Shown: positions 3,172-63,302 of the stretch, piece by piece
Numbering within the stretch: position 1 is the stretch's first letter
Layout: each line of letters begins with the position of its first letter
NCBI GenBank assembly: GCA_001910725.1
Contig: MJGA01000014.1
Coordinates: 855,980 to 919,979 of the forward strand
DNA length: 64,000 nucleotides
Direction of reading: 5' to 3'
Origin: Phanerodontia chrysosporium
Taxonomy: Eukaryota; Basidiomycota; Agaricomycetes; Polyporales; Phanerochaetaceae
Notes under the pieces: generated by a model
Database searches by the model: none
What the model was told of the DNA's origin: nothing
The model's input: only the letters and a program-made list of their open reading frames with translations
Made by a program: the position numbers and the translations under genes

Positions 3172-3173
3172 CG
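3172..3173. other. Inversion breakpoint, left
   Basis: Left of this point the sequence is gypsy-1 between gag and pol. From 3173 on it is identical to 30567 onward, inside the last codons of a SAM-like gene. The partner breakpoint is at 46954/46955. Joining 3172 to the reverse complement of 46954 restores pol, and joining the reverse complement of 3173 to 46955 restores the gene. Confidence 0.9.
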
Positions 3174-3485
3174 TCGAGAAGCGTCATCCCAATATCATGA
3201 CGGAGCATCTTCAAATAATTATCCTCACCTAGATTCGCCACCGCGCACAAATCCTCCTCCGTCCGAATACCTGCCTCCAGGAACCGATCGAGGTACGTGT
3301 CAAGCGGGAGCTGCAGGTTTCGGAGAAACTCCAGGACAGCCCCACCTGACTCGACTGGAGCGCTCGCATCCTGAGTAGCCATGCTACTCCCGACCTCCTC
3401 AGGCTCATCAGCCTGCATCGTCTCCATCACCTTGCCATCCTTGCTTCCCTGAGCCTGCTCGTCCTCCTCCTCAACAAGTTCATCT

Positions 3486-3522
<37 letters not shown>

Positions 3523-4035
3523 TCTTCTCCTCCTCGTCCTCCTCCTCGTCCATAGGTTCTTCATTCTCCTCCTCACTCTCTTTCGCCTTGCGCCCCTTGC
3601 CTTTTTTCTTCAACGATTGTTCAGCCCGCCACTGCTGGCTCGTCACGTGTGCTCGTAGATACACCTCCAGCGGCCACCCCTCCTCGTACCGTCCAAGGAA
3701 CGGGCATCTCTCCATCACCTATATCGTACATCAGCACCTCGCTATATTTCTATCTTTGCCTTCCAATTCAGCCTACTCAGCACTCACTTTGTTCCGCAGT
3801 GACTCGTATTCTGCTGCAGACCGATCACCCCAACGCCTCTCCACAGGGATGAACCGTGGATACTCCTCCCTCGCCACCTTCTGCACATTCAACAACAATA
3901 TTTCAATTAGCTTTTCAATCGACCCTCCAAGTTCCTTCACCAACGCACGATCAGTTCCCTCCTCTCTCCCGCCGTCATTCCTTCAATCGAAGTGAGCCCG
4001 CGGAACTTCGATGTCGACTTTGGAACCAAAATCAT
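3173..4035 (-). pseudogene. SAM-like acidic protein, copy A1, C-terminus cut off by inversion
   Basis: The exons, by comparison with the intact copy at 30522-31429, are 4035-3949, 3880-3788 and 3718-3173. The protein has an N-terminal basic segment, a conserved block (PFLGRYEEGWPLEVYLRAHV), a Lys-rich stretch, a long Glu/Asp tract, and a C-terminal helical domain ending in LGEDNYLKMLRHDIGMTLL that resembles a SAM (sterile alpha motif) domain. The last 14 codons and the stop are now at 46956-47000 on the plus strand. The minus-strand frame instead reads into antisense gag. Confidence 0.85.
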
Positions 4036-4189
4036 CGTGGTCCGTGAAAGAGAAGGGGGGAGGGGGGCGAACAGAGAGCTTCCTGTCGCCTACCATCCAC
4101 AGTAACAGTACAATAAAGAAAGAGCGCCAAGCATGTACAATCTAATCTTGGGCCCTGTCCACTCATATGAATTTCTCACATGACACTCC

Positions 4190-4312
4190 ATTGATCACAC
4201 GCCAGGAAGACGCGACAGCGGAACACGCACGGTTTGATTGCTTCACGGATTGACAGATTCTGACCATCCCATCTCATTCTGCGCTTCCTGACCCTCCTCT
4301 CGTTTAAACAAG
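4190..4312 (-). pseudogene. MAKK-type small gene relic (C-terminal half only), copy A1
   Basis: The minus strand is alignable by eye with the second half of the MAKK genes of units B1 and B2 (RMRWDGQNLSIREA against RMRWEGRNLPIREE). The lysine-rich N-terminal half is missing. Homology stops near 4312, about 120 bp before the end of the inverted-repeat module at 4432. No intact frame remains. Confidence 0.6.
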
Positions 4313-4431
4313 GCCCAATTTTGTTATTTAGCATTCATGCAGACGGCCCGCCCTTCTGGTGTCAGCCGACCGGGGAAGCCGCAACTTCCATCCATTCCCT
4401 CCATTGAATTCAATTATTAAACTCTTCAAAA

Positions 4432-5396
4432 TTTTATAGCGGTTTTTTACCGGTACCTCAGCGCCTCGGTCACCCTCCAGGCTTTGACTTTTATTTTTTT
4501 GCAAAGTAAAAGGGGGTATCCTCGACACATTCCAGTCTATGTCGAATTACGTAAGCGGAAAATACAAATTATTTATGCTACAAAGATGAGATCGACCGTA
4601 TGAAACGTGACTGAGTCTCCGATGGCTGCTCGACCAGCGATCGGAAACGGTCCAGTCATGGCAGCTAACACTGTGTAGAACCAGTGTTACGGCCCGATCA
4701 CTGCTCGAACAGCGATCGGGTGGCGACAGCTGACGAGATTGGTAGGACCACCCGATTGCTGTTCGAGCAGCGATCGGGAAGCACCGACAATCGAAGGCAG
4801 CAAAGGGAGCGAGTATACCCATGAGCCCCGATCGCTGCTCGAGGAGCGATCGGAGTGAGGGCTTCATTGCACAGAAGGCACTTCGATCACACCCCATAGC
4901 AGGCAAAGTGACAACAACTTGTCATACGCAAGCCACAACAGTCTGCATATCATGACATGCTGGTTTTCAAGTTACCAGTCCCTCAATCATGTAACCACCA
5001 ACAGAGATCGTGAATAAATGTCAGAAGTGTTTACGCCTCGAATAAATCGCCCTCAGTTCAGGATAGATGTTGGGTTCAGAATGGGTTAGAGGTTCAGAGG
5101 GTTCAAAGAGGAGTTGACGAAAAGGCATTTGTGCCACGACCAATTTTACAGATGTTTGTGTCGGTCACATAGTAGAGATCATACTATCTGGGATGTCAGA
5201 AATTGCGTATGTCTGCCACAAACATATTTAAAAAAACAAATGCAAAGGCGGGAATGTCCATTCCACCGCCATCAGCTGGTCGATCTATCTGCAAACAGGT
5301 GCATACAACATGTGATCAAATTCTTATCAGTAGCGATCTCGCGCAAGGGCAGTGCTGAGCGACTTGAAAGACAACCACCACCACCCCCTCATCATA
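4432..5396. repeat. Left arm of the ~3.9 kb inverted-repeat module (A1)
   Basis: This arm is an imperfect reverse complement of 7425-8339. Both outer ends carry the same motif set: TATA.CGG or CCAGTATAAT, a GGTACC box and GGGTGACC. It holds four copies of the 26 bp palindrome (4617-4852) and a degenerate telomere-like stretch (5030-5110). The inner end reaches the upstream region of the small gene at 5397. Confidence 0.8.
4617..4852. repeat. Palindrome cluster, 4 units
   Basis: Four copies of the roughly 26 bp palindrome (half-site CCGATCGCTGCTC) lie 58-76 bp apart. Half-sites carry single mismatches (atggctgctc, atcactgctc). Confidence 0.9.
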
Positions 5397-6064
5397 ATGT
5401 CCACAAACGCTCCATCTCGTGCCGTGAGCGAAGAGGTCGACGATGGAGAGCGTGCCTCATCTCATGTAAGTAAGGTTTTCGCTGAAGTGAAGAGGGTACT
5501 GATGAAGAGTTTGGCAGAATCGACGTGGGAGGATGCTCCGCGAGGTACAATACGCGATTGAGCGATATTGGGACTTCAATGGTTTGTCTGGGGAGAAGTA
5601 CCACGAACGAGATCGGGACAACTTCGAGGGGGATTTCGCAGAGTACGCTCGGCAAAACGATGATGCCCGGGACGTCAAGAGGGCCAGGTTCGTGCGCATA
5701 CTCACCAGCGCGCGGTCGATTGCTGGCCAGATCCTGAGGATGAACCTGGATATCAACGGAATGACTTCCGGCGACCCGGCATGGACCGCCCTCCGCGATT
5801 TCGCGGTGAGTTGATGGACGATCATGATGCATAGTGCGACAGCGAGCTCACTGTTGAACCCAGCCGGAGTGTATCCAGAAATACGGAGAGACTGCGTGGG
5901 AAATTGTCATGCGTCACCTCGTGTGGAGTCATGGTCTGCGGATGCTTTTGATGTTCAACCGCGAGTTCAAGTATGAGTGGTCCGGTGACTACGCGCTCCC
6001 GTTTGAGGACTCAATCCACCAGGAGCTCTCTCAGATCGAAAGGTGCATCTGCGTCTATGAATAA
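5397..6064 (+). CDS. YGAW-family small protein, A1 gene 1 (three exons)
   Basis: The exons are 5397-5465, 5518-5805 and 5864-6064. Both introns (52 and 58 bp) are GT..AG in phase 0. The product is about 185 residues. Exon 2 carries FNGLSGEKYHERDRDNFEG and RFVRILTSARSIAGQILRMN; exon 3 carries QKYGETAWEIVMRHLVWSHG. The same exon layout and motif (YG..AW....H......GL) recur in at least four distinct genes here, so the model is well supported by comparison. It converges on a paralogue at 6769-7424. No signal peptide, membrane segment or known domain is visible. Function is unknown. Confidence 0.8.
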
Positions 6065-6426
6065 CTCATTGCTATGTGCGTTATCTGCTGTACAAATCGG
6101 TTTCAAACGTATCCAGTCTATTCCGAGGAAGAGAAATAATTTGTGTGATTTATGGTGCGCTTTGAGATAAGCTCACATTCGTATAAACTGCTTGTATTCT
6201 AACATCGATGATGAAAGGCGACTTGTTGTCTTCCAGCAGTCACATTTGCATACTACTGACACTGATTCACAATCTCTGTTTGTTGTTACATAACTGAGGC
6301 ACCCGTAACTTGAAACCTAGCATGTCGTAATATGAAGACTGTTGTGGCTTGCGTGTGATAAGTGGTTGTCACTGTGCCTGCTATGGGGAGTGATCGAAGT
6401 GCCTTCTGCACAATGAATGCCTCTCT

Positions 6427-6664
6427 CCGATCGCTGCTCGAGCAGCGATCGGGGCCCATGTGTATACTCCCTCTCTCCAATGCCCTCAACTGTTGGTGGT
6501 TCCCCGACCGCTGCTCGAACAGCGATCGGGTGACCTTACCAACCTCATTATCTGTTGTCACCCGATCGCTGCTCGATCAGCAATCGGATGGCCACACTGG
6601 TTCTATTCGTGGTCACCTCTCATCAGTGTACGCTGTCCGATCGCTGCTCGAGCAGCCATCGGAG
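6427..6664. repeat. Palindrome cluster, 4 units, between convergent genes
   Basis: Four palindromes, 58-78 bp apart, lie in the spacer between the 3' ends of the two convergent YGAW genes. One has a full half-site pair; the others have one mismatch each. The remainder of 6065-6768 holds nothing else I recognise. Confidence 0.9.
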
Positions 6665-6768
6665 ATTCAGTCGCTTTTCATGTGTTTGATCTCATTGTTG
6701 CAGCATACATAACTGACCCCGAGTTGTAGATTTTCACGACCAAACATGCCAATAACGAGGGATACTAG

Positions 6769-7424
6769 TTACAAGTAGCGACATTTCTCGCGCTGCGCGA
6801 GCTCCTGATGCAATGTGAACTCAAAGTCGAAACTCTCGGACATAGTAAAAATGAAATCGCGCTGAAAGGTCCTAAGCCAGTGCAGACCATGACTCCGCAC
6901 GAGGTGATACATCGCAATGTTCCAGGGACTCGGTCCGAAATGCTCCCGACAATACGTCTGGATTCGATAGTAAGCCCGCTTTCACACTATGCATCAATGT
7001 CATTCACGAACTCACCCCGGTGTCACGGATCGTCGTCCAGGCCTCGTCACCCCGCGACATGTCGTTGATATTCAGGTTCATCCTCAGGATCATTCCAGCA
7101 ATCGCCCGCGCGCTGTGGAGTATGCGCACGAACCTGGCCTTCTTGACGTCCTCAGCGTCATCGTTCTGCCGTGCGTACTCTGCGAAATCTCCCTCGAAGT
7201 TGTCCCAATTTCGATCGCGGTAGCACGGCCCAGACAAACCCTCGAACTTCCAATGCTCCTCAAACACGTATTGTCGGTTGCGCACCGGGCTCCCATCTCC
7301 GTTCTGCCAAACTCTTCATCAGTACCATCTTCAACTCGGCGAAAACCTTACTTACGCCAGGTGAGGCATGCTCCCCATCCTCGACCTCTTCGGGGACGGC
7401 ACGCGAATCGGTAGTGCTGGACAT
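6769..7424 (-). CDS. YGAW-family small protein, A1 gene 2 (three exons)
   Basis: The exons are 7424-7356, 7303-7016 and 6957-6769. Introns are 52 and 58 bp, GT..AG, phase 0, the same sizes as in the convergent partner at 5397-6064. The product is about 181 residues. Exon 2 is about 70% identical to the partner (FEGLSGP.YRDRNWDNFEG, ARFVRILHSARAIAGMILRM). Exon 3 is more diverged and begins TYCREHFGPSPWNIAMYHLV. The gene pair plus inverted flanks suggests the module arose by an inverted duplication. Function is unknown. Confidence 0.8.
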
Positions 7425-7966
7425 TACGAGGGTGGATGGTGGTGGTGGTCTTTCAAGTCGCTCAGCACTGCCCTTGCGCGAGATCGCTACTGATAAGAAT
7501 TTGATCACATGTTGTATGCACCTGTTTGCAGATAGATCGACCAGCTGATGGCGGTGGAATGGACATTCCCGCCTTTGCATTTGTTTTTTTAAATATGTTT
7601 GTGGCAGACATACGCAATTTCTGACATCCCAGATAGTATGATCTCTACTATGTGACCGACACAAACATCTGTAAAATTGGTCGTGGCACAAATGCCTTTT
7701 CGTCAACTCCTCTTTGAACCCTCTGAACCTCTAACCCATTCTGAACCCAACATCTATCCTGAACTGAGGGCGATTTATTCGAGGCGTAAACACTTCTGAC
7801 ATTTATTCACGATCTCTGTTGGTGGTTACATGATTGAGGGACTGGTAACTTGAAAACCAGCATGTCATGATATGCAGACTGTTGTGGCTTGCGTATGACA
7901 AGTTGTTGTCACTTTGCCTGCTATGGGGTGTGATCGAAGTGCCTTCTGTGCAATGAAGCCCTCACT

Positions 7967-8146
7967 CCGATCGCTCCTCGAGCAGCGATCGGGGCTCATG
8001 GGTATACTCGCTCCCTTTGCTGCCTTCGATTGTCAGTGCTTCCCGATCGCTGTTCGAGCAGTGATCGGACAGTAACACTGGTTTTACGCAGTGTTACCTG
8101 CCATGACTGGACCGTTTCCGATCGCTGCTCGAGCAGCCATCGGAGA
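7967..8146. repeat. Palindrome cluster, 3 units
   Basis: Three palindromes. The homologous cluster at 35367-35602 has four. The middle unit here is a hybrid of the second and third there, as expected from recombination between adjacent palindromes. Confidence 0.88.
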
Positions 8147-8297
8147 TTCAGTCATTTTTTATAAGTTTGATCTCATGCTTGCAGCATACATAATCGATCC
8201 CGATTCATGGATTTCCACGTTCCATAATTTCACACAGGTTGAAATGTGTCGGGGATACCCCTCGTTATTTCGCAAAAATAAAAGTCAAAGCCTGGAG

Positions 8298-8339
8298 GGT
8301 GACCTAAGCCCTAAGGTACCAGTAAAAAACCAGTATAAT
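8298..8339 (+). other. Unit terminus (CCAGTATAAT end), copy 1
   Basis: The sequence is identical to the A2 unit up to CCAGTATAAT and then unrelated, entering a 5'-truncated reverse transcriptase frame. The same end occurs at 20269, 35797 and 40570, each time against a different broken sequence. Read on the minus strand it starts ATTATACTGG and contains TTAGGGCTTAGG. Confidence 0.85.
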
Positions 8340-9753
8340 GACTGCTAACAAGCGGCTAGTTATACAATTCGGCGACGAGTATGCAGAGCAGATCCGGGGC
8401 CTGGCTATGGGCATTGCCTGTAGCCCGGACTTGGCTAACCTCTACGGTTCTCACTACGAGAACCCTATACTCGCCAGACCCGACATGAAATCGAAGTTTG
8501 CCTTCTTCGGTCGGTATCTGGACGACGTACTCGGCATAGTCTATGCTTCGTCAGCAGAGGAGGCTATGTCGTATGCAAACGAAATTCGCTACGACGGCGT
8601 CGAAATCGAGTGGTCAGTGTCGGAGTACCACACTCCGTTCTTGGATCTTTTCCTCTATCTCGATCCAGTCGAGAAGAGGTTACATTGGAAACCTTATTCT
8701 AAACCACTGAACCACCGTGAACGCATACCATGGGCATCTCACCACCCGAAAGATGTTAAGAAAGGCACCTTTATCGGCGAGATGTCTCGTCTGGCCACGC
8801 TTTGTAGTAAACTGGAACACTACAGAGACGCCATATCAGACCTGAGTAATCTGTACTTGGCACGTGGATATCCAGACGATGCGGTGAGGAGTTGGGTTAA
8901 AGCTCACTTTTCACAAAGATGGGAACGAAGGCTTGGTGAGCCAATCGTACGGGATGAAGTCTTTGTGCTTAAATCCCACTTCAATCCCGCTTGGTCTGCG
9001 TTCAACGTCCACGGCTTGTCTGAAGTCGTCGTTGAATCCTGGTTGTCCAGCCTGAGTAAGCTCGACGGAGCTAATCAATCTCAGGACCGTACGTGGCACG
9101 CCGCAGAGAGCACTGATGGGTCCGAGCTGAAAATCTTTCGGCAGACGACTCTCGGTCAGTTCCAAGGCGAGCAGAGCAGTCTATATCCCGGTGAGAGTTG
9201 CCCTGAAGGGGTGGCCGGCCGAGTGGGCGTAGCCAATGTTGCGAAACCCCGTGTGACCTACGATCCCAGGGATGTCATGGACGTTGACGAGCTTGTAGCT
9301 CTCAGCGAACCCAGCTTCTCGGCACACGACCTCAGTGTTGTGTGGACTGACAACGCGTTACGAGTACCTAAATCCCTACGAATACGATACGCAATGGCCG
9401 AGCCTCGGTTAGATGCGGATCCGCAGGTAAATCCTGCCCTCCATGTACCTTTGGGAGTGGAGGACCAGGTCGGTGACCTCGGACCCGCCTCAGATACGGA
9501 GTCGGTTGCTAGCGGAGATGACGGCACAACGAATAGTAAGCCCTATCGTATTTGTACGGCGAAGAAGGACTCGGGAATCGTCCAGGAGGATCTGGATATA
9601 CGGTCCATTGGATTCCACGACCGCACCTGGCTTGTCTCCCGAAAGAAAATTCGCAATCTCGGGGACATAGTCAATAGCTGGAAGAAGGACATCATTCAAG
9701 CAGCATTGAACAGTGACTCTGTTCAACACATGCACGTGGACGAATGGCAGTAA
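8340..9753 (+). CDS. Coprina-type Penelope-like reverse transcriptase, 5'-truncated
   Basis: The open frame of 471 codons begins at the junction: its first codon ATG is made partly of the terminus, so the start is an accident. It carries RT motifs: QIRGLAMGIACSPDLANLYG, then the catalytic FGRYLDDVLGIV, then FLDLFLYL and a long C-terminal block (HWKPYSKPLNHRERIPWASH, ARGYPDDAVRSW) of the kind seen in Penelope-like elements. The fingers, the first catalytic Asp and everything upstream are missing. No GIY-YIG endonuclease follows. That agrees with the telomere-attached, endonuclease-lacking Coprina elements of basidiomycetes, as do the hammerhead ribozyme and CCCTAAA repeats directly downstream. 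A domesticated rvt gene is less likely for that reason. Confidence 0.82.
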
Positions 9754-10630
9754 TGCGATTCGATAACTGCTGGCCGTAATGGTCAGAGGATATTTACTTA
9801 GCGGCATACACTTTGGTTCAAACCCAAAACCCCTAAACTAAGCCCTAAGCCTAAATATTCATTAGCGTCTCCCTCACAGGCCTAAACCCCCTGAAGCGGA
9901 GTTGTACCCGTTGAACGGTACAGCCAGCAGTTATAGAGTATTTTGTTGTACAGCGTCATTATTTAATGGATGCAATGAGCGCCCGCCTTCGTGGCGTGGG
10001 CGCTTCGGTGATCGCCGTGACGGCCGCGCACGTGTCCCACGTGTTCGTCTCGTGGCTGCTAATAGCGTCTGTGATCATGTGATCTTCGACCCAGGGCTGC
10101 GGTTAACTCTGGATTCGATGCGCATGTTAATAACCGGCCCGAATCCGGGTCGGCTCCGAACTGACTCCGCTAGGTTCGGGAGACTTTTGCCGGGGTGGCT
10201 GCGTGCCGGACTTCGTCCGGGCACTTTGTGGCGTTGATCCGATCAGATCGAGATCTCGAGACTTCGAAAGGTGACTTTTCGGTAGTCCGCTGCTCGCTGG
10301 GGTGTTGTTGGCCCCTTCCGCATGACCTGTACATTCAAAACCTTCATACTTTCGCCGAGAAAGAGTCCCTTAAGGGGATTTGTTGCTCCCGACCTCGGGA
10401 GACGTTTCTCCGCGCCAATCGCATTACCGCCGACGAGCGACATTTCGCCTCTCGTCGGCCCGCCAGTCCCTTCGGGCCTGGCGGTTGCAAGGGGTATATA
10501 TCCCAGTAGGAAACCGCTGATGAGTCTTCACGACGAAAGCTCAGCGCGACACAACAGTGTCGGCTGCCTTCGGTTTTCCTGTGAAGCATTCCGCGCTCGC
10601 CGCTCGCTACGCTCGCGTCTCGCGCCCCCC
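9754..10630 (+). mobile_element. 3' region of the Coprina-type element
   Basis: Non-coding sequence between the RT stop and the telomere repeats. It includes a degenerate telomere-like stretch (9823-9870), a GC-rich segment, and a hammerhead ribozyme core at 10505-10580. Its last ~85 bp recur in reverse orientation at 63916-64000, which defines the 3' end of the element. Confidence 0.8.
10505..10582 (+). ncRNA. Hammerhead ribozyme of the Coprina-type element
   Basis: The core CTGATGA is at 10517-10523, stem II GTC/GAC with loop ttcac at 10524-10534, and GAAA at 10535-10538. Stem I pairs AGGAAACCG (10508-10516) with CGGTTTTCCT (10571-10580). Stem III is 10539-10568, closed by GACAC/GTGTC. In the second copy at the window end, stem III is a perfect 10 bp hairpin (CAGCCGACAC/GTGTCGGCTG). 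The predicted cleavage site is after 10570. Hammerhead ribozymes are known in Penelope-like elements. The site dinucleotide UU is less usual than the common GUC. Confidence 0.8.
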
Positions 10631-10650
10631 AAACCCTAAACCCTAAAAAC
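10631..10650 (+). repeat. Interstitial telomere repeats, CCCTAAA type
   Basis: Two exact CCCTAAA heptamers plus a partial one join the Coprina 3' end to the interrupted P1' gene. The C-rich strand follows the element's 3' end, the arrangement expected when reverse transcription is primed by a G-rich chromosome end. Confidence 0.9.
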
Positions 10651-13600
10651 CGACCGGGCTAGACGTCGTCGGAGTCGAGCGTCCCGCTCTCTCTTTTGCG
10701 CTGCAACGCGCTCGTCCAGCTCCTCCTGAGAACGCGCAGAGGCCTCAGAGCCGTCACCATCGTTCTTCTTCTGCCTCTTCATAGCGGCCTGCGCCATGAA
10801 CTGCTTCAACTCGTCGTCGAGCTCGATCGCGTCGTCTCCGCTCTCGAACGCGGCCGAGGAGACATCGGAAGAGCCCTCGCTGTCGCCACCCACGTCTTCA
10901 TACTCGTCTGAGGAATCGGATGCCCAGTCATCCCCACCAACAACATAGCCTGTGGAACCACGAGCTTCACGTCGACGAGATGAGTAGTCGACGACTTCCT
11001 CCTCCTCCTCAGGCTCCGCTCTCCGCTTAGGCTTGGGCTTAGGCTTGGGCTTGGGATTGGAGGTAGGCGTTGCATTATCATCGCCCTTGGCCTTGCCCTG
11101 GGGTTTGCCGGCTGCATCATCTTCGCCCTCGCTGTCCTGCACTACCTGCTCGTTCATCTCGATGTCCTCGCTGACCTGGTCTCGATCCTCATTCGCGGCG
11201 ACGAGTTCGCTGTCGCCATCGCTGGCCTCCTCATGCGGCTCCCTTTCGTAGCGCGCCTTCTTCTTGTCCGGAGAGCGAACGATGGACCCGCTCCTGGCCA
11301 ATCTCGAAGCCGGGGTCTCAGACCTTTCGAGCGGCGAAGAGGAGGTGGCAAACTTTCGCTTCTTCGGAGTCGAAGGGGCCTCCGCGACAGCCGTGTCCTC
11401 GCTCTGCTGGGCAGCTGCGTCCTGCACGAAGACGCGCGGTTGGCCGACGAACACCTCAAACGACCTTGGCACGACGCGAGTCGTGCTCGCGGCCCCTTCG
11501 CTGGCCTGACCAGTCCCGGTGGATGTTGATGCCGATGGCGCTGCGGGTGGGGTATAGGTGAATGGGAGTCGAGGGGGACCATCTGGATTGGGAGACGTGA
11601 GGGCGTTGAGATTCCAAGGACAGTTGTTGTCGTAGTCGACGACAGTTCGAAGACCCTGCGTGGGCAACTCGAACATGTTCCAAAACTTCGTGGGGTCAAA
11701 GTATTTGGACTCGTCGAGCTTCTTCTGGAGGACGTCCTTGCGCTCCTTCTCAGGGTGCTTGTCGAGCAGCTGAAGACGGATCTTCTCGATCTCGTGCTTG
11801 TGCTGCATGTTAGCCATGAGAGCCTATGTTCACCTTCAGAGAACGTCTCAAGAAATCACATGGAGAAAGGTCTTACTGCGAAAAACGCCTGCGCGGCAAA
11901 GAAAACACCTTGCGAAACAGAGCGGGGCATGACCTGCAAGGTCTCGGGGTTGAAGGCAGAGGCGGCGGCGAGACTGAGTGCCTTCTGGACGGGAGCCAAG
12001 ATCCGCTCCTTCTCAGCGACAATCAACGCACGGCGAGTGAGCCAAAAGGTGGCTTCGTGAGAGACGGGCGCCGCCCAGTCGACCTCTTGCTCGGTCAAAA
12101 TGACGCGCTCGTCATCTGGCCAACGCCATTCGCGTGCTGTGATCATGACACGGCCTCCGCGTTTGAGAGTGGACCTGCAGTACTTGTCGAGCGCATCCTG
12201 CAGGAGGTCGCGGGTCTTGCGGAATTGTATGGTGTCCTTCATCTTCTTGAGGACGATCTTCCAGTACGCGTGTTCGAAATGCAGGGAGATGAGCAAGTCC
12301 TTGACGATACTGCGAGCGGAGTTACTGCCAATAGCCGGATAGTTGTAATGAATGCGGAGTAACCACTGCGCAGGGACGCTGTTGGGAAGAGGCGAGTAAA
12401 TGTGAGATTCCTTCCAGCGTCGTTCAGCAGCTCTGCCGACGATGAAGCTGTCGATGATCGACTTGCAGGTTTTGATGTCCTCGGCGATGGCCTCGACCGT
12501 CTTCAGCAGAGGGAGGTTGTTTGGGTTGATCCATTCGCGATAGGGGGCGATGTCGACGAACCCAGACTCGGCAACGAAGTCGCGCTCGTCCTTGGCGTCG
12601 TCCTTCGCTTTGCCCTTGCCCTTCGCCGGGTTGGTCTTGGTAACCTCCCTGGACGCGCCGGGTTTGGCCGCAGACCGCTTGCCCGAGGTCGAGCTACTTG
12701 CGGTCGTCGGAAACGAGGTTGCTTTACTCGACGCCGTGGCTTTAGATGACGTCGCCATCTTCACGCCAGGCATCTTCTGCCGAACCGCCGCTTTCTGACT
12801 GGAGCTCTTCCTACGCTCTGCCTTCGCCTTTCCCGTTGGCTTCTCGATATCGATGTCCATGTCGTATTCGTTCTCGTTCTCGTCCGCGAGCTCGTCCTCG
12901 CCCTCGTCCATGTCGTCGTCTTCGTGCTCATCGACAGCGGGCTCGTCGTCGTCGCTGCTACTGTCGGCTTCCCCCTCACTGGTCACGTCCCCTTCACCAT
13001 TGTCGACGATCTTGGGCTCGACGCCAGGAACGTAGTCATCGTCTGGGTTGACGACGTTAACGTCGGGGACGATGCCGAGTTCCTCCTTCTTGCCAGCTTT
13101 CCGCCGATTGAGGTTGAAGATAGAGGCGATGGCCGCGTTGTACCGGTCGTTCATTATGGACTGTTCTGCGCGACGGCGAGTATACATTTGTTTGCCCTCG
13201 TTGAGGTCGATGTCTGGGCTGAGGATCCAACGATCCATCAGGACGTTGACTTGGACCTTCCTGTCGACGAGGCGCGGGGGCAACTTGTCAGCCTCGATGG
13301 TGAGCTCGTAGAGCACGATAGGGCATGCGTTGAATAATGTCCATAGTAGCTACGCTCAATGTGATTAAACCAATGATAGTTGGTTTCATATGATAGGAAG
13401 GTGCTTACTTCTTTTCGCGCGCGATCGCTTGCACGAAGTTCGATGCCGCTATTCGGGTTCATGAGAGCGCGACCGGCGGCATCCGAGACATCGCGCGCGA
13501 CGAGAGGGGAGCTGTTGGATTTGCGGACGAGCGTAGGGATACTCGGGTCAATCATGGTGCAGGCCTTGTTCGGGATACGAAGTTAGCTCTCCAATTCAGA

Positions 13601-31599: not shown

Positions 31600-31710
31600 G
31601 AAGACGCGACAGCGGAACACGCACGGTTTGATTGCTTCACGGATTGACAGATTCTGACCATCCCATCTCATTCTGCGCTTCCTGACCCTCCTCTCGTTTA
31701 AACAAGGCCC
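31600..31710 (-). pseudogene. MAKK-type gene relic, copy A2
   Basis: Same truncated relic as at 4190-4312, identical in sequence, lying between the SAM-like gene and the inverted-repeat module. Confidence 0.55.
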
Positions 31711-31831
31711 AATTTTGTTATTTAGCATTCATGCAGACGGCCCGCCCTTCTGGTGTCAGCCGACCGGGGAAGCCGCAACTTCCATCCATTCCCTCCATTG
31801 AATTCAATTAATAAACTCTTCAAAATAAAAA

Positions 31832-32796
31832 TTTTATAGCGGTTTTTTACCGGTACCTCAGCGCCTCGGTCACCCTCCAGGCTTTGACTTTTATTTTTTG
31901 CGAAGTAAAAGGGGGTATCCTCGACACATTCCAGTCTATGTCGAATTACGTAAGCGGGAAATACAAATTATTTATGCTACAAAGATGATATCGAACGTAT
32001 GAAACGTGACTGAGTCTCCGATGGCTGCTCGAGCAGCGATCGGAAACGGTCCAGTCATGGCAGCTAACACTGCGTAGAACCAGTGTTACCGCCCGATCAC
32101 TGCTCGAACAGCAATCGGGTGGCGACAGCTGACGAGATTGGTAGGACCACCCGATTGCTGTTCGAGCAGCGATCGGGAAGCACCGACAATTGAAGGCAGC
32201 AAAGGGAGCGAGTATACCCATGAGCCCCGATCGCTGCTCGAGGAGCGATCGGAGTGAGGGCTTCATTGCACAGAAGGCACTTCGATCACTCCCCATAGCA
32301 GGCAAAGTGACAACAAATTGTCATACGCAAGCGACAACAGTCTGCATATGATGACATGCTGGTTTTCAAGTCACCAGTCCCTCAATCATGTAACCACAAA
32401 CAGAGATCGTGAATAAATGTCAGAAGTGTTTATGCCTCGAATAAATCGCCCTCGGTTCAGGATAGATGTTGGGTTCAGAATGGGTTAGAGGTTCAGAGGG
32501 TTCAAAGAGGAGTTGACGAAAAGGCATTTGTGCCACGACCAATTTTACAGATGTTTGTGTCGGTCACATAGTAGAGATCATACTATCTGGGATGTCAGAA
32601 ATTGCGTATGTCTGCCACAAACATATTTAAAAAAAACAAATGCAAAGGCGGGAATGTCCATTCCACCGCCATCAGCTGGTCGATCTATCTGCAAACAGGT
32701 GCATACAACATGTGATCAAATTCTTATCAGTAGCGATCTCGCGCAAGGGCAGTGCTGAGCGACTTGAAAGACAACCACCACCACCCCCTCATCATA
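31832..32796. repeat. Left arm of inverted-repeat module (A2)
   Basis: Near-identical to 4432-5396. Its outer flank has a small insertion (aaataaaaa type) compared with A1. Partner arm is 34825-35797. Confidence 0.8.
32017..32254. repeat. Palindrome cluster, 4 units (A2)
   Basis: Same positions as 4617-4852, with single-base differences at palindrome arms (for example cagcaatcggg against cagcgatcggg). Confidence 0.9.
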
Positions 32797-33464
32797 ATGT
32801 CCACAAACGCTCCATCTCGTGCCGTGAGCGAAGAGGTCGACGATGGAGAGCGTGCCTCATCTCATGTAAGTAAGGTTTTCGCTGAAGTGAAGAGGGTACT
32901 GATGAAGAGTTTGGCAGAATCGACGTGGGAGGATGCTCCGCGAGGTACAATACGCGATTGAGCGATATTGGGACTTCAATGGTTTGTCTGGGGAGAAGTA
33001 CCACGAACGAGATCGGGACAACTTCGAGGGGGATTTCGCAGAGTACGCTCGGCAAAACGATGATGCCCGGGACGTCAAGAGGGCCAGGTTCGTGCGCATA
33101 CTCACCAGCGCGCGGTCGATTGCTGGCCAGATCCTGAGGATGAACCTGGATATCAACGGAATGACTTCCGGCGACCCGGCATGGACCGCCCTCCGCGATT
33201 TCGCGGTGAGTTGATGGACGATCATGATGCATAGTGCGACAGCGAGCTCACTGTTGAACCCAGCCGGAGTGTATCCAGAAATACGGAGAGACTGCGTGGG
33301 AAATTGTCATGCGTCACCTCGTGTGGAGTCATGGTCTGCGGATGCTTTTGATGTTCAACCGCGAGTTCAAGTATGAGTGGTCCGGTGACTACGCGCTCCC
33401 GTTTGAGGACTCAATCCACCAGGAGCTCTCTCAGATCGAAAGGTGCATCTGCGTCTATGAATAA
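32797..33464 (+). CDS. YGAW-family small protein, A2 gene 1
   Basis: Exons 32797-32865, 32918-33205 and 33264-33464, identical in sequence to 5397-6064 over the coding part. It is convergent with 34169-34824. The identity argues for a recent duplication or gene conversion between the A1 and A2 units. Confidence 0.8.
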
Positions 33465-33826
33465 CTCATTGCTATGTGCGTTATCTGCTGTACAAATCGG
33501 TTTCAAACGTATCCAGTCTATTCCGAGGAAGAGAAATAATTTGTGTGATTTATGGTGCGCTTTGAGATAAGCTCACATTCGTATAAACTGCTTGTATTCT
33601 AACATCGATGATGAAAGGCGACTTGTTGTCTTCCAGCAGTCACATTTGCATACTACTGACACTGATTCACAATCTCTGTTTGTTGTTACATAACTGAGGC
33701 ACCCGTAACTTGAAACCTAGCATGTCGTAATATGAAGACTGTTGTGGCTTGCGTGTGATAAGTGGTTGTCACTGTGCCTGCTATGGGGAGTGATCGAAGT
33801 GCCTTCTGCACAATGAATGCCTCTCT

Positions 33827-34064
33827 CCGATCGCTGCTCGAGCAGCGATCGGGGCCCATGTGTATACTCCCTCTCTCCAATGCCCTCAACTGTTGGTGGT
33901 TCCCCGACCGCTGCTCGAACAGCGATCGGGTGACCTTACCAACCTCATTATCTGTTGTCACCCGATCGCTGCTCGATCAGCAATCGGATGGCCACACTGG
34001 TTCTATTCGTGGTCACCTCTCATCAGTGTACGCTGTCCGATCGCTGCTCGAGCAGCCATCGGAG
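33827..34064. repeat. Palindrome cluster, 4 units (A2)
   Basis: Copy of the cluster at 6427-6664, in the spacer between the convergent gene pair. Confidence 0.9.
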
Positions 34065-34168
34065 ATTCAGTCGCTTTTCATGTGTTTGATCTCATTGTTG
34101 CAGCATACATAACTGACCCCGAGTTGTAGAGTTTCACGACCAAACATGCCAATAACGAGGGATACTAG

Positions 34169-34824
34169 TTACAAGTAGCAACATTTCTCGCGCTGCGCGA
34201 GCTCCTGATGCAATGTGAACTCAAAGTCGAAACTCTCGGACATAGTAAAAATGAAATCGCGCTGAAAGGTCCTAAGCCAGTGCAGACCATGACTCCGCAC
34301 GAGGTGATACATCGCAATGTTCCAGGGACTCGGTCCGAAATGCTCCCGACAATACGTCTGGATTCGATAGTAAGCCCGCTTTCACACTATGCATCGATAT
34401 CGTTCACGAACTCACCCCGGTGTCACGGATCGTCGTCCAGGCCTCGTCACCCCGCGACATGTCGTTGATATTCAGGTTCATCCTCAGGATCATTCCAGCA
34501 ATCGCCCGCGCGCTGTGGAGTATGCGCACGAACCTGGCCTTCTTGACGTCCTCAGCGTCATCGTTCTGCCGTGCGTACTCTGCGAAATCTCCCTCGAAGT
34601 TGTCCCAATTTCGATCGCGGTACCACGGCCCAGACAAACCCTCGAACTTCCAATGCTCCTCAAACACGTATTGTCGGTTGCGCACTGGGCTCCCATCTCC
34701 GTTCTGCCAAACTCTTCATCAGTACCATCTTCACCTCGGCGAAAACCTTACTTACGCCAGATGAGGCATGCTTCCCATCCTCGACCTCTTCGGGAACGGC
34801 ACGCGAATCGGTAGTGCTGGACAT
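34169..34824 (-). CDS. YGAW-family small protein, A2 gene 2
   Basis: Exons 34824-34756, 34703-34416 and 34357-34169, matching 6769-7424 with a few substitutions (for example GP.Y with W in place of C in exon 2). Splice sites and frame are kept. Confidence 0.8.
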
Positions 34825-35366
34825 TACGAGGGTGGATGGTGGTGGTGGTCTTTCAAGTCGCTCAGCATTGCCCTTGCGCGAGATCGCTACTGATAAGAAT
34901 TTGATCACATGTTGTATGCACCTGTTTGCAGATAGATCGACCAGCTGATGGCGGTGGAATGGACATTCCCGCCTTTGCATTTGTTTTTTTAAATATGTTT
35001 GTGGCAGACATACGCAATTTCTGACATCCCAGATAGTATGATCTCTACTATGTGACCGACACAAACATCTGTAAAATTGGTCGTGGCACAAATGCCTTTT
35101 CGTCAACTCCTCTTTGAACCCTCTGAACCTCTAACCCATTCTGAACCCAACATCTATCCTGAACTGAGGGCGATTTATTCGAGGCATAAACACTTCTGAC
35201 ATTTATTCACGATCTCTGTTTGTGGTTACATGATTCAGGGACTGGTAACTTGAAAACCAGCATGTCATGATATGCAGACTGTTGTGGCATGCATATGACA
35301 AGTTGTTGTCACTTTGCCTGCTATGGGGAGTGATCGAAGTGCCTTCTGTGCAATGAAGCCCTCACT

Positions 35367-35602
35367 CCGATCGCTCCTCGAGCAGCGATCGGGGCTCATG
35401 GGTATACTCGCTCCCTTTGCTGTCTTCGATTGTCGGTGCTTCCCGATCGCTGCTCGAACAGCAATCGGGTGGTCCTACCCATCTCATCAGCTGTCGCCAC
35501 CCGATTGCTGCTCGAGCAGTGATCGGACGGTAACACTGGTTCTACGCAGTGTTACCTGCCATGACTGGACCGTTTCCGATCGCTGCTCGAGCAGCCATCG
35601 GA
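35367..35602. repeat. Palindrome cluster, 4 units (A2)
   Basis: Four palindromes where the A1 unit has three (7967-8146). It shows that units are gained or lost between otherwise nearly identical copies. Confidence 0.9.
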
Positions 35603-35755
35603 GATTCAGTCACGGTTTATAAGTTTGATCTCATGCTTGCAGCATACATAACCGATCCCAATTCATTGATTTTCACGTTCCATAATTTAACATAGGTTGG
35701 AATGTGTCGGGGATACCCCTCGTTATTTCGCAAATTTAAAAGTCAAAGCCTGGAG

Positions 35756-35797
35756 GGTGACCTAAGCCCTAAGGTACCAGTAAAAAACCAGTATAAT
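35756..35797 (+). other. Unit terminus (CCAGTATAAT end), copy A2
   Basis: Identical to the terminus at 8298-8339. The flank here is the dUTPase part of gypsy-2. That A1 and A2 are the same up to this base and differ after it defines the end. Confidence 0.88.
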
Positions 35798-36187
35798 GGT
35801 GGAAAGACACCATCCAAGAGCACTACCGAGGCAGCAGGCTGGGACCTGTATGCAGCAGAAGATGCAACAATTCCAGCAGGAGACCGCAAACTCATCAGCA
35901 CTGGCATTCACATCCGAGTTCCAACTGGGACCTATGGACGAATTGCACCGCGATCAGGACTAGCACTCAAAGGCATTCATGTCGGCGCAGGCGTTATCGA
36001 CCGGGACTACACAGGTATCGTCAAAATACTACTCCTTAACACAAGCGACAGTGACTTCACAGTCACGACTGGAGATAGGACGGCTCAATTGATCCTGGAG
36101 AAAATTGCCGATGCCGATATAGAAATCGTCGAAACGCTACAGTCAACCGATCGTGGATCAGGCGGGTTTGGATCCACTGGAAAATAA
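35798..36187 (+). pseudogene. dUTPase domain at the C-terminus of gypsy-2 polyprotein, 5'-truncated
   Basis: About 130 codons with the five dUTPase motifs in order: AAGWDLYAAE (1), APRSGLALKG (2), GVIDRDYTG (3), GDRTAQLIL (4) and RGSGGFGSTG (5). The frame has no start of its own; it begins at the unit terminus. It is followed by a purine tract (gaagaggggg) and an LTR, so it is the C-terminal dUTPase of a retrotransposon polyprotein and not a host gene. Everything upstream (gag, protease, RT, integrase) is gone. Confidence 0.88.
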
Positions 36188-36226
36188 AAGTCTTCTCTCG
36201 GGAGTTCGAATCTGAAGAGGGGGTAC

Positions 36227-36758
36227 TGTCACAGTTTTCTAATTCCCTACGGTTTTATTCTCGTAAAACGCCCAGTAGGCGCTAGGGGTTAGGGTTATGG
36301 ACTAGGGTTAGGACAGGCACGCGTCAGAACGCGGTCACGTGTTGGTCACGTGCTGGGAATGGACTCAGAGTCATGTGAGGATCTTATCTTTATCTTATCT
36401 ATGATGTAGACGCTCCGGTACAAGGGTATAGTAGGTAGCCGGACCCAGGGTCCGGGTAGTGTATTCTAGAATAGCGTAGAAGGTTCCGGACACATCTGGT
36501 ACTTGGCTCTAGACTTCGCCGAGCCCGGAGTGTCTTGGCAAGTATCGCACCATCATCACGCCATCGCGCATGTGATGGGCAGTATCAAGGGTCTCGGGTA
36601 GTACCAGGGGTCCTCCCCTTCATGTATATATACCGGGCTCTGCTGGGCTTAAGTCCCCAGCATCATCTACCTCGTCTTTCACCCACTTCACTCGCAACTC
36701 GCAGTCAAGTCCAACCCCACTTAAGCTACTAAGGTAAGTAGCGGGGTTTACTTTGACA
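36227..36758 (+). mobile_element. gypsy-2 3' LTR
   Basis: It starts TGTCACAG directly after the purine tract and ends CTTTGACA, about 532 bp. It has a TATA box (tatatata at ~36624) and a GATAA-rich stretch (36385-36402). It contains telomere-like GGGTTAGGG motifs (36288-36316). It has no similarity to the gypsy-1 LTR. Confidence 0.82.
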
Positions 36759-37057
36759 CACTGGAGCCGTCCACGTAACCTGTACGACCTTCCCATCATG
36801 TGACCCACATTCTAATGTAGCTATCCACTTGCCATTTGCAGATTCATTCCAACCGCTTGCATATGTGCTACATGCTGAACCACTTCCACCCCACTTCCCT
36901 TAAGTATTGTAATAGTCGGTCTTCACAGTTCCCATCAATCATATGATGTTATCCCTTATCTCCCCTATCATTCGATAATATATACAACGCACCCTCCATT
37001 TCCCCTTCACTGTTCACTCTTCCTTCGCTCTGTCCCCACTTCCGCTTCTTGGAACGT

Positions 37058-37684
37058 ATGTCCACTCAACAAAACAACTCCCCAGCCCCATCCTGCCCCA
37101 GACCTGCCTCAACGGCACCTTCTGTACGTCGCTTCAAACAACACCTAACAGATTAAACCTAACAACGACACTACAGTCTACTTCTCGTGTCCGTACCCCG
37201 GAGGATGAACTCGAGAGGTTGACCGATGAGGAGGTCCCCAAGCCACTGCCCGCAGAGGTCGGCGACCCCAATGTCGTAACCAAAGAACATCGCTTCCGCG
37301 TCATCCTGGACAACGTCCGTTACCTCTGCGGCGTCCTTCTCTGTACCGAGACAGAGTTGCGCAACATGGTCGCTGGTGACAAAACGTGGACGGACTTGTG
37401 CCTTGCATATGTAAGTTCTTCCTATATCTCTGCAATTCGCTTTGTCGTCCCGAAGCTCACCCACTGTCCAGCACACGCTCTGCCAGTGCTATGGCGCTCG
37501 AGTCTGGAACGTCGCCCTCTGTCATCTCATGTGGAACCACAATCTCCCGGTGTTGGCGAGCTTTGCCAACGACCTCAACTTCGTTCCCAGCATCGTTCAC
37601 GAGTTCAAGAGGACTGCTCACCGCGAACTTTGCAATCCAGAGTCGTGTCGGGAGACGTATCAGCTTCAAAGTGTTTGGTCGTAA
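37058..37684 (+). CDS. YGAW-family small protein, unit B2 (three exons)
   Basis: Exons 37058-37123, 37177-37410 and 37472-37684; introns 53 and 61 bp, phase 0. The product is about 170 residues: a Pro/Ser-rich start (STQQNNSPAPSC), RFRVILDNVRYLCGVLLC in exon 2, and CQCYGARVWNVALCHLMWNH in exon 3. It is diverged from the other family members but keeps both intron positions and the YG..W motif. It reads in the opposite direction to the neighbouring SAM-like and MAKK genes. An ataatatataca stretch at ~36977 may serve as its promoter. Confidence 0.78.
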
Positions 37685-37883
37685 CCCTGTACCTATAGTA
37701 TTTCTTTTGATCCATGTAATTTGTAAATGAAACATTTTCCTTGGTTCACACTCTGAACCCCTACGGGAGATGTAAGTCGCCCCCTCGGTGCTCAAGCACC
37801 GTCCGGCGGCCCGTTGATGGTTCCGACGCTGAGCGTTCATGGGGGATCTGATGCCTAACGTTTCGCAGATATCAACGTCTCTT

Positions 37884-38122
37884 CCCCGATCGCTGCTCGA
37901 GCAGCGATCGGGGACATACCCACCTCAACCGTTGTGTGTCAGATCGGTATGTGGTCCGATCGCTGTTAAAGCAGCGATCGAAGATAACCCGCTTGTGGCA
38001 TAATATGAAGTAACTGTGTCTCTCCCCGATCGCTGCTCGAACAGCGATCGGATAACAATCAGTTTCTGGCAGAGAGCGCAGTAACTGCACGTCTCCCCGA
38101 TCTCTGCTTGAGCAGCGATCGG
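37884..38122. repeat. Palindrome cluster, 4 units (B2)
   Basis: Identical to 17586-17824. Confidence 0.9.
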
Positions 38123-38217
38123 AGTATTCTACAGTTTGACATTAAACACTCGTAAATCATCCAACAATATTTTATGTCATAGTACACACAGTAAGCTCTT
38201 GTTACAAAACCCGGCAC

Positions 38218-39179
38218 TTAGTGAGGATACAATTCGCGCAACCGAGACTCAACAATGCGGGAGTCTAGAGATGTCATACCAAGATCATGACGGAGCATCT
38301 TCAAGTAATTATCCGCACCTAGATTCGCCACCGCCCACAAATCCTCCTCCGTTCGGATACCCGCCTCCAGGAACTGATCCAGGTACCTCTCCAGTGGAAG
38401 GTGCACATGTCGAAGAAACTCCCGGATAGCCTCGCCTGACTCGTCCAGAGAGCTGGCATCCTCAGTAGCCATGGCACCCCCCACGTCGCCAGGCTCGTCA
38501 ACCTGCATCGTTTCCTTCCCCTTGCCTGTCTCGCTTCCCTGAGCCTCCTCCTCCTTCTCGTCCTCGTCCTTCTTCTCCTCCTCATCATCAAGTTCGTCCT
38601 CCTCGTCCTCCTCGTCCTCCTCGTCCTCCTCGCCCTCCTCGTCCTCCTCGTTCTCTTCGTCCTCCTGCTTCTTGTTCTCCCTGTTCTCCTGCTCCTCGTC
38701 CTCCTCCATAGCTTCTTCATTCTCCTCCTCATTCTCTTTTGCCTTGCGCCCCTTGCCTTTTTTCTTCGACGAATGCTCCGCCCGCCACTGCTGGCTCGTT
38801 ACGTGTGCTCGAAGGTACACCTCGAGCGGCCATCCCTTCTCGTACCGGCCGAGGAACGGGCATCGCTCCATCACCTGTACTGTACATCAGAACCTTGCTA
38901 CATTTCCATCTTCACCGTCCGGCGCACTCACTTTGTCCCGCAGCGATTCGTATTCAGCTGCAGCCCGATCACCCCAACGCCTCTCCAGAGGGATGAACCG
39001 CGGATACTCCTCCCTCGCCACCTTCTGTGCATTCAAAACCAACATGTCAATTAACATTCCAATTGACCCTCCAAGTTCAATCATCAACGCACAATGAGTT
39101 CCCTCCTCTCTCCCGCCATCATCCCTTCAATCGCACTCAGGCCTCGGAACTTCGACGTCGACTTTGGCACTGGAATCAT
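38218..39179 (-). CDS. SAM-like acidic protein, copy B2, intact (three exons)
   Basis: Exons 39179-39093, 39024-38932 and 38874-38218; 278 residues. It starts MIPVPKSTSKFRGLSAIEGM. It is the same architecture as the A2 copy but with a longer acidic tract and diverged C-terminus (FLRHVHLPLERYLDQFLEAG). Intron 1 has a gttaattgac branch-site-like sequence. Compared with B1 it keeps the C that B1 lost, so it is the working B copy. The clear A/B divergence with kept exon structure suggests the gene was under selection. Confidence 0.8.
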
Positions 39180-39329
39180 TATTGTCTGTGAAAGAGATGG
39201 GGGGACAGAGGAGCTTCCTGTCACCTACCGTGCGCAGTAACAGGACAATAGATAAAGAGCACCAAGCATGTACAATCAAATCTCAGCCGATGTCCTGTCA
39301 TATCCATTTCTCACATGACAGGCCATTCA

Positions 39330-39711
39330 TCACACGCCCGAGCAACCAATGCGATAGCGCAAGATGCATGTATTTATCTCTTCACGGATTGGCAGATTCT
39401 GCCCTTCCCATCTCATTCTACATAACCCAGCCCTCATCTCGTTCAAGCGAGGCCGGATCGGCGGGCCCATATTCAGTCTTGACACGCTGGATATGATAGA
39501 TCTCCCCCGGGGGGCGCTCTTGCCTTGTGATGCCAATGCCAATAGACCTGGAAAGTACCAGCCTCATCCGGCGAATGTGCTCCGTGTCATCGATCGGCTC
39601 TGACGTCGCCACCTCGGTGCCTTCGTTCTGAGCCTTCGCTTCAGTCGCCGTCTTCACCTTCTCGTTCTTGCCCTTCCCTCCCCTCTGTCTCTTCTTTCCC
39701 TTCTTTGCCAT
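39330..39711 (-). pseudogene. MAKK small basic protein, copy B2, frameshifted
   Basis: The first half is intact from MAKKGKKRQRGG through IHQ-like and LERDEGW (to ~39420), where an extra C compared with B1 (plus-strand cataaccc against cataacc) shifts the frame to an early stop. The conserved second half (RMRWEGQNLPIREEINTC) continues in another frame to 39330. B1 and B2 are thus broken at different places. Confidence 0.65.
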
Positions 39712-40002
39712 TTTTTCTAACGAGCTCTATGTCATATTGGATTCCTCGCACTCAATATCTTGTAATATACTTACAACTGTTTTGATCAAATTGGTGATAT
39801 CTTATAGCTGTCGTGGATGGGGTAGAGGATGGAGAGCAATGCATTGTCTACCAGCAATCGCGCTTAAATACGACAGATATTGATTCGCAATAAACGCCTA
39901 AGGTTACATTAAGTCACGAGTAACTTGAAGCATGTGATAATGAATATACCGGTCACTGCTCCCGAGAGCAATCAAACTGCTTTCTGCGAAATGAAGCCTT
40001 CA

Positions 40003-40377
40003 CTCCGATCGCTCCTCGAGCAGCGATCGGGAACATTGGGTATACCCTCTCCCCTTCGCTTCTGCAACCCAATGGTGTGTTCTCCGATCGCTGCTCGAGG
40101 AGCAATCGGAGTGAAGGCTTCATTTCGCAGAAAGCAGTTTGATCGCTGTTCGAGCAGCCATCTGAGGGTAACACTTGGCCTTCTTAGAGTTGCCTGATCC
40201 AGCTGCACCTTTCCCGATCACTGCTCGTGGGGTGCTCGGGGTGGCTTTCATGAAACCACGGAATAACCCTTCCTGTCCGATCGCTGCTCGAACAGCGATC
40301 GGAGACTTTAAGTCCGTTTCATCTTTGACAATTATCAGCCTATTTCCCCGACCCCTCTTCGAACAGCGATCGGGGAG
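40003..40377. repeat. Palindrome cluster, 6 units (B2)
   Basis: Copy of 19702-20073 with a few base changes in the arms (gatcactgctcgtgggg). Confidence 0.88.
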
Positions 40378-40528
40378 ATTGCTTCTTTTGCATGTTTTAC
40401 GTGAGTCAGTACGCTCAAATTGCATTATTCTTTTTAATCACTTCATCTGTCACTTTGAGCTTAAGCGCCTTTACTATGCTAATTCATATACGAACTGGTT
40501 CTCCAAACATGCGAGGCTATGCCTTAAG

Positions 40529-40570
40529 GGTGACCTAAGCCCTAAACAACCAGTAAAAACCCAGTATAAT
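40529..40570 (+). other. Unit terminus (CCAGTATAAT end), copy B2
   Basis: Identical to 20228-20269, but the flank is now a fragment homologous to 7437-7790. Confidence 0.87.
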
Positions 40571-63300: not shown

Positions 63301-63302
63301 GT

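Follow-up and report, generated by a model that had tools for sequence, protein, structure and literature searches.

Telomere-facing multi-gene units with a fixed ATTAT terminus at AT dinucleotides in the subtelomeres of Phanerodontia chrysosporium

A window of 64,000 nucleotides of Phanerodontia chrysosporium DNA, the right end of contig C44 (855980-919979 of 919979), contains four copies of a short sequence terminus, each abutting a different interrupted sequence. On balance, each of these four termini probably marks the fixed, proximal boundary of a large mobile element carrying several genes. The elements would form a superfamily in which the telomere takes the place of a second element end, and their proteins would act at AT. 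That the units replace chromosome ends is well supported by the orientation of their termini and by the way the units end; as to the route, we infer either a cut at AT with DNA copying, or RNA copying. All genome-wide results refer to one assembly of 39.0 Mb in 145 contigs.

Termini in the window and across the genome

The initial annotation had placed four termini on the minus strand, and they match exactly: ATTATACTGG occurs in the window on that strand only, with 5' ends at 8339, 20269, 35797 and 40570, and TTAGGGCTTAGG begins 25 bases inside each. Two close sorts are represented, A (8339, 35797) and B (20269, 40570), which have about 42 bases in common and then diverge. A fifth terminus, of a sort designated D, had been missed. 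The termini, with their neighbors (RT, reverse transcriptase; ORF, open reading frame), are as follows.

8298..8339, minus strand: A-type terminus (ATTATACTGG..TTAGGGCTTAGG..), abutting a truncated RT-like ORF
20228..20269, minus strand: B-type terminus, abutting truncated P2; intact P2 reads ATGAGATG at the break
35756..35797, minus strand: A-type terminus, abutting a truncated dUTPase ORF; ATCTAG in the intact relative
40529..40570, minus strand: B-type terminus, abutting a fragment of the unit-A interior; ATCATA in the intact relative
41304..41328, minus strand: D-type terminus, ATTATGCCTAGATTCTTGCTGTCGG

Truncation of the sequences next to these termini had been claimed on first reading. 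It is borne out for the P2 gene at 20269, an intact copy of which continues through 57176, for the dUTPase ORF at 35797 (PF00692, E=5e-42), and for the fragment at 40570, which has about 90% identity with sequence from inside unit A. The neighbor of 8339, described as a truncated Coprina RT, is a plus-strand ORF (8326-9753) with weak RT matches below cut-off (RVT_1, E=0.13; Drt3a, E=0.0035); the name Coprina is a presumption. The further claim that the interrupted sequence never resumes beyond the terminus stands for 20269 and 40570, where no isolated second half occurs and matches lie in other whole units, while 8339 and 35797 are without a usable relative.

All four termini face the same way, and they lie within a segment that is inverted relative to other subtelomeres.

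3173..46954: inversion of 43.8 kb, breaking sharply inside both a gypsy element and unit A's acidic ORF

The gypsy element is divided into 1-3172 (plus strand) and 46955-42563 (minus strand), and the acidic ORF of unit A is divided at the same two points. When 3173-46954 is re-inverted, a 600-bp probe across the gypsy join matches C60 over its full length at 93%, and a 600-bp probe across the acidic-ORF join matches C60, C55 and C64 over its full length at 98-99%. With probes of the joins as assembled, just one half of each matches other subtelomeres. Because the re-inverted probes match end to end, the window units originally faced right, toward the contig end, in agreement with the initial annotation; the five C44 termini face away from it because of the inversion only. 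The inversion may be real or an assembly error.

Genome-wide, 65 terminus matches were found on 27 contigs, 32 of A/B, 7 of a further sort C and 26 of D, counts that are lower bounds. Every set begins ATTAT; A/B termini start ATTATACTGG, C termini ATTATATGGG and D termini ATTATGCCTAG, and those of C and D differ from A beyond the first 5-6 bases. With no more than 3 mismatches allowed, the A/B pattern ATTATACTGGNTTTTTACTGG is found 32 times in 39 Mb and its reversed control never; bare ATTATACTGG has 53, and the 21-base pattern parts the family from chance 10-mers. The C terminus ATTATATGGGAAAATCGACTGTGGG, spotted where A units break off, gives 7 matches, and the proximal end of the D family, reached through gene G1, gives 26, with no control match in either case. 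Probing with A-specific sequence from within the terminus recovered 27 copies, and 25 of them begin ATTAT. A foldback A end on C117 reads ATAAT, its terminus being interrupted by the start of a C unit. The A, B and D termini contain, about 25 bases in, a telomere-like tract, TTAGGG or TTTAGGG.

The telomere repeat of this genome is TTTAGGG (five tandem copies of TTAGGG have no match in the genome), a repeat that PMC8874372 also gives for Stropharia rugosoannulata. Arrays stand at the ends of C55, C57, C60, C63, C64 and C121, and occur also on C21 and C51. Four tandem copies of TTTAGGG are found on plus strands only (94 versus 0), as if assembly had trimmed left contig ends.

Collecting every terminus and classifying its flanks, the check proposed with the initial annotation, gave a uniform orientation: on the six contigs that end in TTTAGGG arrays, 19 of 19 termini face the telomere. 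Termini share a single direction in 15 of the 16 contigs with at least two of them, the exception being C117, with one inverted end of its foldback A copy. Internal copies with empty sites and target duplications, the contrary outcome named beforehand, did not appear; outside C44 with its inverted window, every match lies within 117 kb of the end it faces.

Junctions, distal ends and stacks

The census yields 61 distinct junctions (30 A/B, 26 D and 5 C), those inherited by duplication having been merged only where flanks are identical. The flank of each was compared with uninterrupted relatives reaching the break, available for 41 of the 61. The best intact relative reads AT exactly at the break in 38 of these 41. 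The same procedure applied 20, 37, 55 and 80 bases upstream finds AT in 0, 4, 5 and 5 of 38, or 14 of 152 control positions. Just upstream of the break A is depleted, found at -1 in 3 of 61 junctions (p=1.2e-4) and at -2 in 5 of 61, against a background of 24%; bases after AT show no clear preference in the 42 relatives listed. The unit start is fixed and the target is AT; either letter of the AT may belong to the host or to the unit. At the breaks shown, acceptor and unit have no homology beyond AT, and at the 61 junctions it is other DNA, not acceptor telomere repeats, that stands directly before ATTAT.

AT at the joint suits recognition of an AT site; eroded ends chancing to finish in AT would also fit. 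The initial annotation had envisaged repeated addition of units to eroded chromosome ends. Addition of units as chromosome ends agrees with the 19 of 19 orientation and with TTTAGGG caps at varied lengths, whereas arbitrary eroded points do not agree with AT in 38 of 41 junctions or with avoidance of A at -1 and -2. Plain break-induced copying, suggested as a route, would not yield an identical first base in 25 of 27 A copies. Nor is the inverted-repeat module, which had been said to make aberrant transposition or ectopic recombination at a transposon end plausible, needed: B is without its 1.5-kb arms, and the C and D termini differ and yet keep the same rule.

Units can be followed from terminus to distal end in the window and on other contigs. 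Those in the window are listed here.

3173..8339, minus strand: A unit copy 1, proximal part; resumes at 46955 with the inversion undone
46955..63893, plus strand: A unit copy 1, distal part, then TTTAGGGTTTAGGGTTTGGGGGG
20270..35797, minus strand: A unit copy 2, spanning 15.5 kb; it begins at its terminus and stops inside P2, at the start of the next (B) unit
10651..20269, minus strand: B unit; telomere-like repeats follow distally, as does the RT-like element's 3' end; distal limit approximate
37620..40570, minus strand: second copy of the B unit, 99% identical to 17322-20269
4434..8338: inverted-repeat module of the A unit, with one arm at 4434-5939 and the other at 6882-8338; a degenerate terminus in inverted orientation forms its inner end
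8340..10650, plus strand: 5'-truncated RT-like element, ORF to 9753; at about 10600-10640 its 3' end, rich in GC, meets telomere-like CCCTAAACCCTAA

A single A unit is present on C55 and another on C64. They run from ATTATACTGG to TTTAGGG over 22771 and 22610 bp, respectively, and are largely collinear with each other and with the window. The window counterpart (8339-3173 plus 46955-63893) measures 22.1 kb and stops at TTTAGGGTTTAGGGTTTGGGGGG, which is where the RT-like element has its 3' end. Shorter units are capped by TTTAGGG at 4727 bp on C57, inside the acidic ORF, and at 3291 bp on C60. Other A units are cut short by the next unit or by the RT-like element, at 141 and 276 bp (C116), 612 bp (C112), 907 bp (C85) and, on C117, to about 31 bp of terminus only; at L036 the terminus is cut to about 31 bp and the end of the RT-like element follows. 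C116 bears a stack of A on A on C. Identity among A units is mostly 95-99%. In C63 and C116 a D terminus is followed by an A body, indicating that bodies have been exchanged behind termini. As regards terminal inverted repeats, a comparison covering A and B finds the 1.5-kb inverted arms in A units and none in B. The A unit on C88 (L023) matches best reversed, as if the module had been flipped by recombination between its arms.

The fate of the DNA distal to the target was followed along six paths with 14 junctions, of which 8 have a usable relative of the interrupted sequence and 6 do not. Its continuation is absent distally in 5 of the 8: C55, C64 and the second junction of C60, each followed to the telomere, and the first and third junctions of C116, followed for 12 kb to the contig start. 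In the other 3 (two in C44, one in C116) the matches to the continuation sit inside later whole units.

The RT-like element is probably a telomere-attached retroelement of the same subtelomeres. Its GC-rich end (GGGGGGCGCGAGACGCGAGCG) lies on telomere-like repeats at 8340-10650, at 63894-64000, and at L014, L021, L022 and L036. Its own 3' end (GGGGGGCGCG..) is unrelated to the unit termini.

Genes of the units

The main genes of unit A, with their second copies and B homologues, are these.

48979..51219, plus strand: G1, three exon-like blocks; also at 26304-28544, minus strand; B homologue at 13918-16155, minus strand
51747..54659, plus strand: G2; also at 22987-25776, minus strand; B homologue at 10636-13349, minus strand
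56469..57242, plus strand: P2, intact frame; truncated copy at 20270-20975, minus strand
58147..59016, plus strand: G5, with a homologue in C and in public data (P0002)
59285..61572, plus strand: further unit-A ORFs in the same direction, 59285-60088 and 60385-61572
30522..31112, minus strand: acidic ORF; B homologue at 17920-18588; no Pfam match

In the A unit of C55, long gene-like ORFs read toward the telomere, and there are overlapping frames on the opposite strand too. The order G1-G2 is collinear in A, B and C, and P2-G5 in A and C. The C unit of C116 codes for relatives of the A and B proteins with gene order kept, at A-C identities of 36% for G1, 34% for G2, 38% for P2 and, in the best block, 53% for G5; DNA similarity between A and this C unit is limited to two stretches of about 115-125 bp at 75-79%. 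Ratios of nonsynonymous to synonymous substitution (dN/dS) between A and B are 0.22-0.33 in five blocks of G1 and G2 and 0.43 in the acidic ORF, compared with 1.16 and 1.22 for frame-shifted controls. Between A and C they are 0.39 for P2 and 0.16 for G5, with synonymous sites near saturation. These low ratios make the A to C genes look like working genes under purifying selection. All 24 matches to G1 and 9 to P2 lie either on contigs shorter than 55 kb or no more than 76 kb from the end of a contig.

Profile searches found one relative of P2, P0001 in ENA, at 77%, and one of G5, P0002, at 38%; the gene set is therefore not peculiar to this genome. The precomputed label PF26608 on P0001 was not recovered in our scan. 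None of the unit ORFs scanned has a match above cut-off in Pfam or NCBIfam. A protein search with the G2 ORF gave no match, sequence searches of PDB returned nothing useful, and viral contigs of IMG/VR held no confirmed relative of P2, G5 or G1. By eye, G1 has a ParB-like look (GGQHRQAALR) and the acidic ORF a SAM-like look; neither impression is supported, by Pfam or NCBIfam for G1 and by Pfam for the acidic ORF.

Proposed route, alternatives and known systems

We tentatively propose, as a possibility falling just short of an even chance, that the units represent mobile elements of a new class, each having a single end of its own and always the telomere for the other, in which the element's own proteins would cut at AT, join the ATTAT terminus and copy to the chromosome end, each jump replacing a tip. 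Element proteins would recognize an AT in a subtelomere, and the cut would expose a 3' A or AT end. A donor unit copy would be joined or primed there, starting exactly at the ATTAT terminus, and copying would run off the donor's chromosome end, telomere included. DNA distal to the target would be lost and the copy would become the new chromosome end; later units landing on earlier ones would give head-to-tail stacks of distally truncated units. The donor strand from ATTAT would end naturally in the telomeric G-strand 3' end, and a nick at the terminus would release one unit together with its telomere. The telomere-like tract inside the A, B and D termini may serve as a telomerase seed for eroded units, as L036 suggests.

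If this proposal is true, an autonomous element with sequence specificity, distinct from telomerase and from any recognizable retroelement, can rebuild chromosome ends. It would explain the stacked, truncated subtelomeres, ATTAT at AT marking each past end-replacement, and would imply novel enzymes for acting at AT and for capping DNA ends. Each jump would spread a selected gene set and supply a ready-made telomere. Families in species with homologues are predicted to share ATTAT and AT, however different otherwise.

Several observations weigh against reading the units as one-ended mobile elements. Unit ORFs scanned with Pfam and NCBIfam (three ORFs of C and none of D, the acidic ORF by Pfam only, and more ORFs of C55 and C116 by eye) gave no nuclease, polymerase, helicase, RT or transposase match above cut-off; in particular, neither an RT of the Penelope/telomerase clade nor a helicase gene was seen among them. 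For P2 and the first block of G1, predicted folds are poor (mean predicted local distance difference test scores of 38 and 57) and give no help with enzyme identity. Of D, G1 is the only gene found, 50% identical to C, with 5-6 in-frame stops in each best match, and three C-type G1 matches have one in-frame stop each; the stops represent introns or decay. The best relative reads otherwise than AT in 3 of the 41 junctions, L017/L046 (AC), L066 (AC) and L019 (GT), with AT present in another relative of L066 and of L019. Among the 38, L030 has relatives (L014 and L073) in which the RT-like element starts at that very point, and a few AT calls rest on alignments of 40-50 bases. One of the 27 A copies, on C79, is joined about 21 bases in. 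No clear host preference was seen beyond AT, which leaves the cutting of intact DNA a conjecture; the elements may have a second, distal end lying farther out than 22.8 kb; and no donor-acceptor event was caught in the one assembly.

The nearest alternative is RNA-templated terminal addition, in which a long antisense RNA running from the telomere inward and ending ..CCAGUAUAAU-3' would be reverse transcribed onto 3' ends finishing in AT, through two-base pairing and perhaps by the RT-like protein of the neighboring element acting in trans. The fixed start, the AT joint and the head-to-tail distal truncation recall the telomere arrays built by retroelements, the same subtelomeres house an RT-like element whose 3' end sits on telomere-like repeats, and the tract inside the A, B and D termini would also be in keeping. 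Most of the facts would suit this route too; we nevertheless judge it unlikely. Unit genes would be antisense to such an RNA, junctions carry no telomere repeats, and the C and D termini share just their first 5-6 bases with A, while the 3' end of the RT-like element is unrelated. Milder objections are the lack of an RT match among the scanned unit ORFs and the avoidance of A at -1 and -2, unexpected from simple pairing; a scan of the window also gave no Rfam match such as a hammerhead. It seems improbable that the units are Helitron-like DNA elements with two ends that insert at A^T and regularly lose the distal end and the host remainder to end erosion. Helitrons target AT dinucleotides (PMC4289320), a likeness to the 38 of 41 junctions here that extends to Helentrons, and the genome holds 17 matches to Helitron_like_N (PF14214), several with long open frames. 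None of the 17 lies at a unit position, however, and the units begin T-TAT or ATTAT, not with the TC of Helitrons. No CTRR end and no two-sided insertion was seen: the 8 junctions that could be assessed show no host remainder in 5 cases and none standing by itself in the other 3. The two longest A units reach telomere repeats at nearly equal length. On C91, two Helitron copies separated by 24 kb (1825800-1828900 and 1849672-1852772) show no difference in the 3.1 kb compared; a larger segment has therefore been duplicated there, and the pair is uninformative as to Helitron ends.

Ordinary subtelomere exchange, with host gene blocks spread by break-induced replication or microhomology repair and ATTAT as a fragile point, would account for A units that are mostly 95-99% alike, and duplicative capture of subterminal sequence at failed telomeres is described for Pyricularia oryzae in PMC8381367. 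Exchange is nonetheless highly improbable, given that 25 of 27 A copies start at precisely one base, that the otherwise different C and D termini keep to ATTAT and to the AT rule, and that acceptor and unit lack homology beyond AT at the breaks shown. The 43.8-kb inversion in the window and the restriction of TTTAGGG x4 to plus strands might suggest an assembly artefact or collapsed repeats, yet 61 distinct junctions on many contigs, with three sorts of terminus, obey one rule, and we give this explanation hardly any credence.

The closest known systems are terminons, endonuclease-deficient Penelope-like elements (Athena) that form giant multi-ORF telomere units in head-to-tail arrays, 5'-truncated by telomere repeats, as PMC6431247 describes them. 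The units resemble them as telomere-associated, co-oriented, distally truncated arrays. Terminons, however, encode an RT, terminate in telomere repeats in reverse complement and are attached to G-rich ones, whereas no RT was recognized in the scanned unit ORFs, the joint is without telomere repeats and lies at AT, and the genes point to the telomere. A hammerhead ribozyme of terminon type gave no Rfam match at the gathering score in a scan of the window. Coprina elements are grouped with terminons. The HeT-A, TART and TAHRE elements of Drosophila, an insect without telomerase, are non-LTR retrotransposons, defined units with one fixed end that are added terminally; end addition and stacked truncated units are the likeness. 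The differences are that TTTAGGG telomeres are present here and that the coding direction is opposite to that of HeT-A.

Y' elements of yeast are gene-bearing subtelomeric repeats at many ends, and RecQ/TLH elements of fungi are likewise gene-bearing subtelomeric repeats common to many ends (PMC7473861). The units differ from both in the absence of a helicase match in the scanned ORFs and in their precise, non-homologous proximal boundary with its AT rule. MoTeRs and FoTeRs, telomeric non-LTR retrotransposons of fungi tied to telomere repeats, are also mobile elements at fungal chromosome ends; the units differ in having no RT recognized in the scanned ORFs and a joint without telomere repeats. 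The units may be a new kind of mobile element; apart from the array form of terminons and the AT target of Helitrons, defining features of these systems were looked for and not found in the sequences scanned. Searches of the open-access literature found no report of such an element.

The contig C21 (25750 bp) has a TTTAGGG tract at 15754-15809, about 10 kb internal, with a G1 match beyond it at 23342 that is 34% identical to C, like the A copies; the tract is an internalized telomere, possibly bearing an added unit. A palindrome like CCGATCGCTGCTCGAGCAGCGATCGG is frequent in the window, often in tandem at a spacing of 42-71 bases, both inside and outside units (for example at 22705-23015 and 62058-62440).

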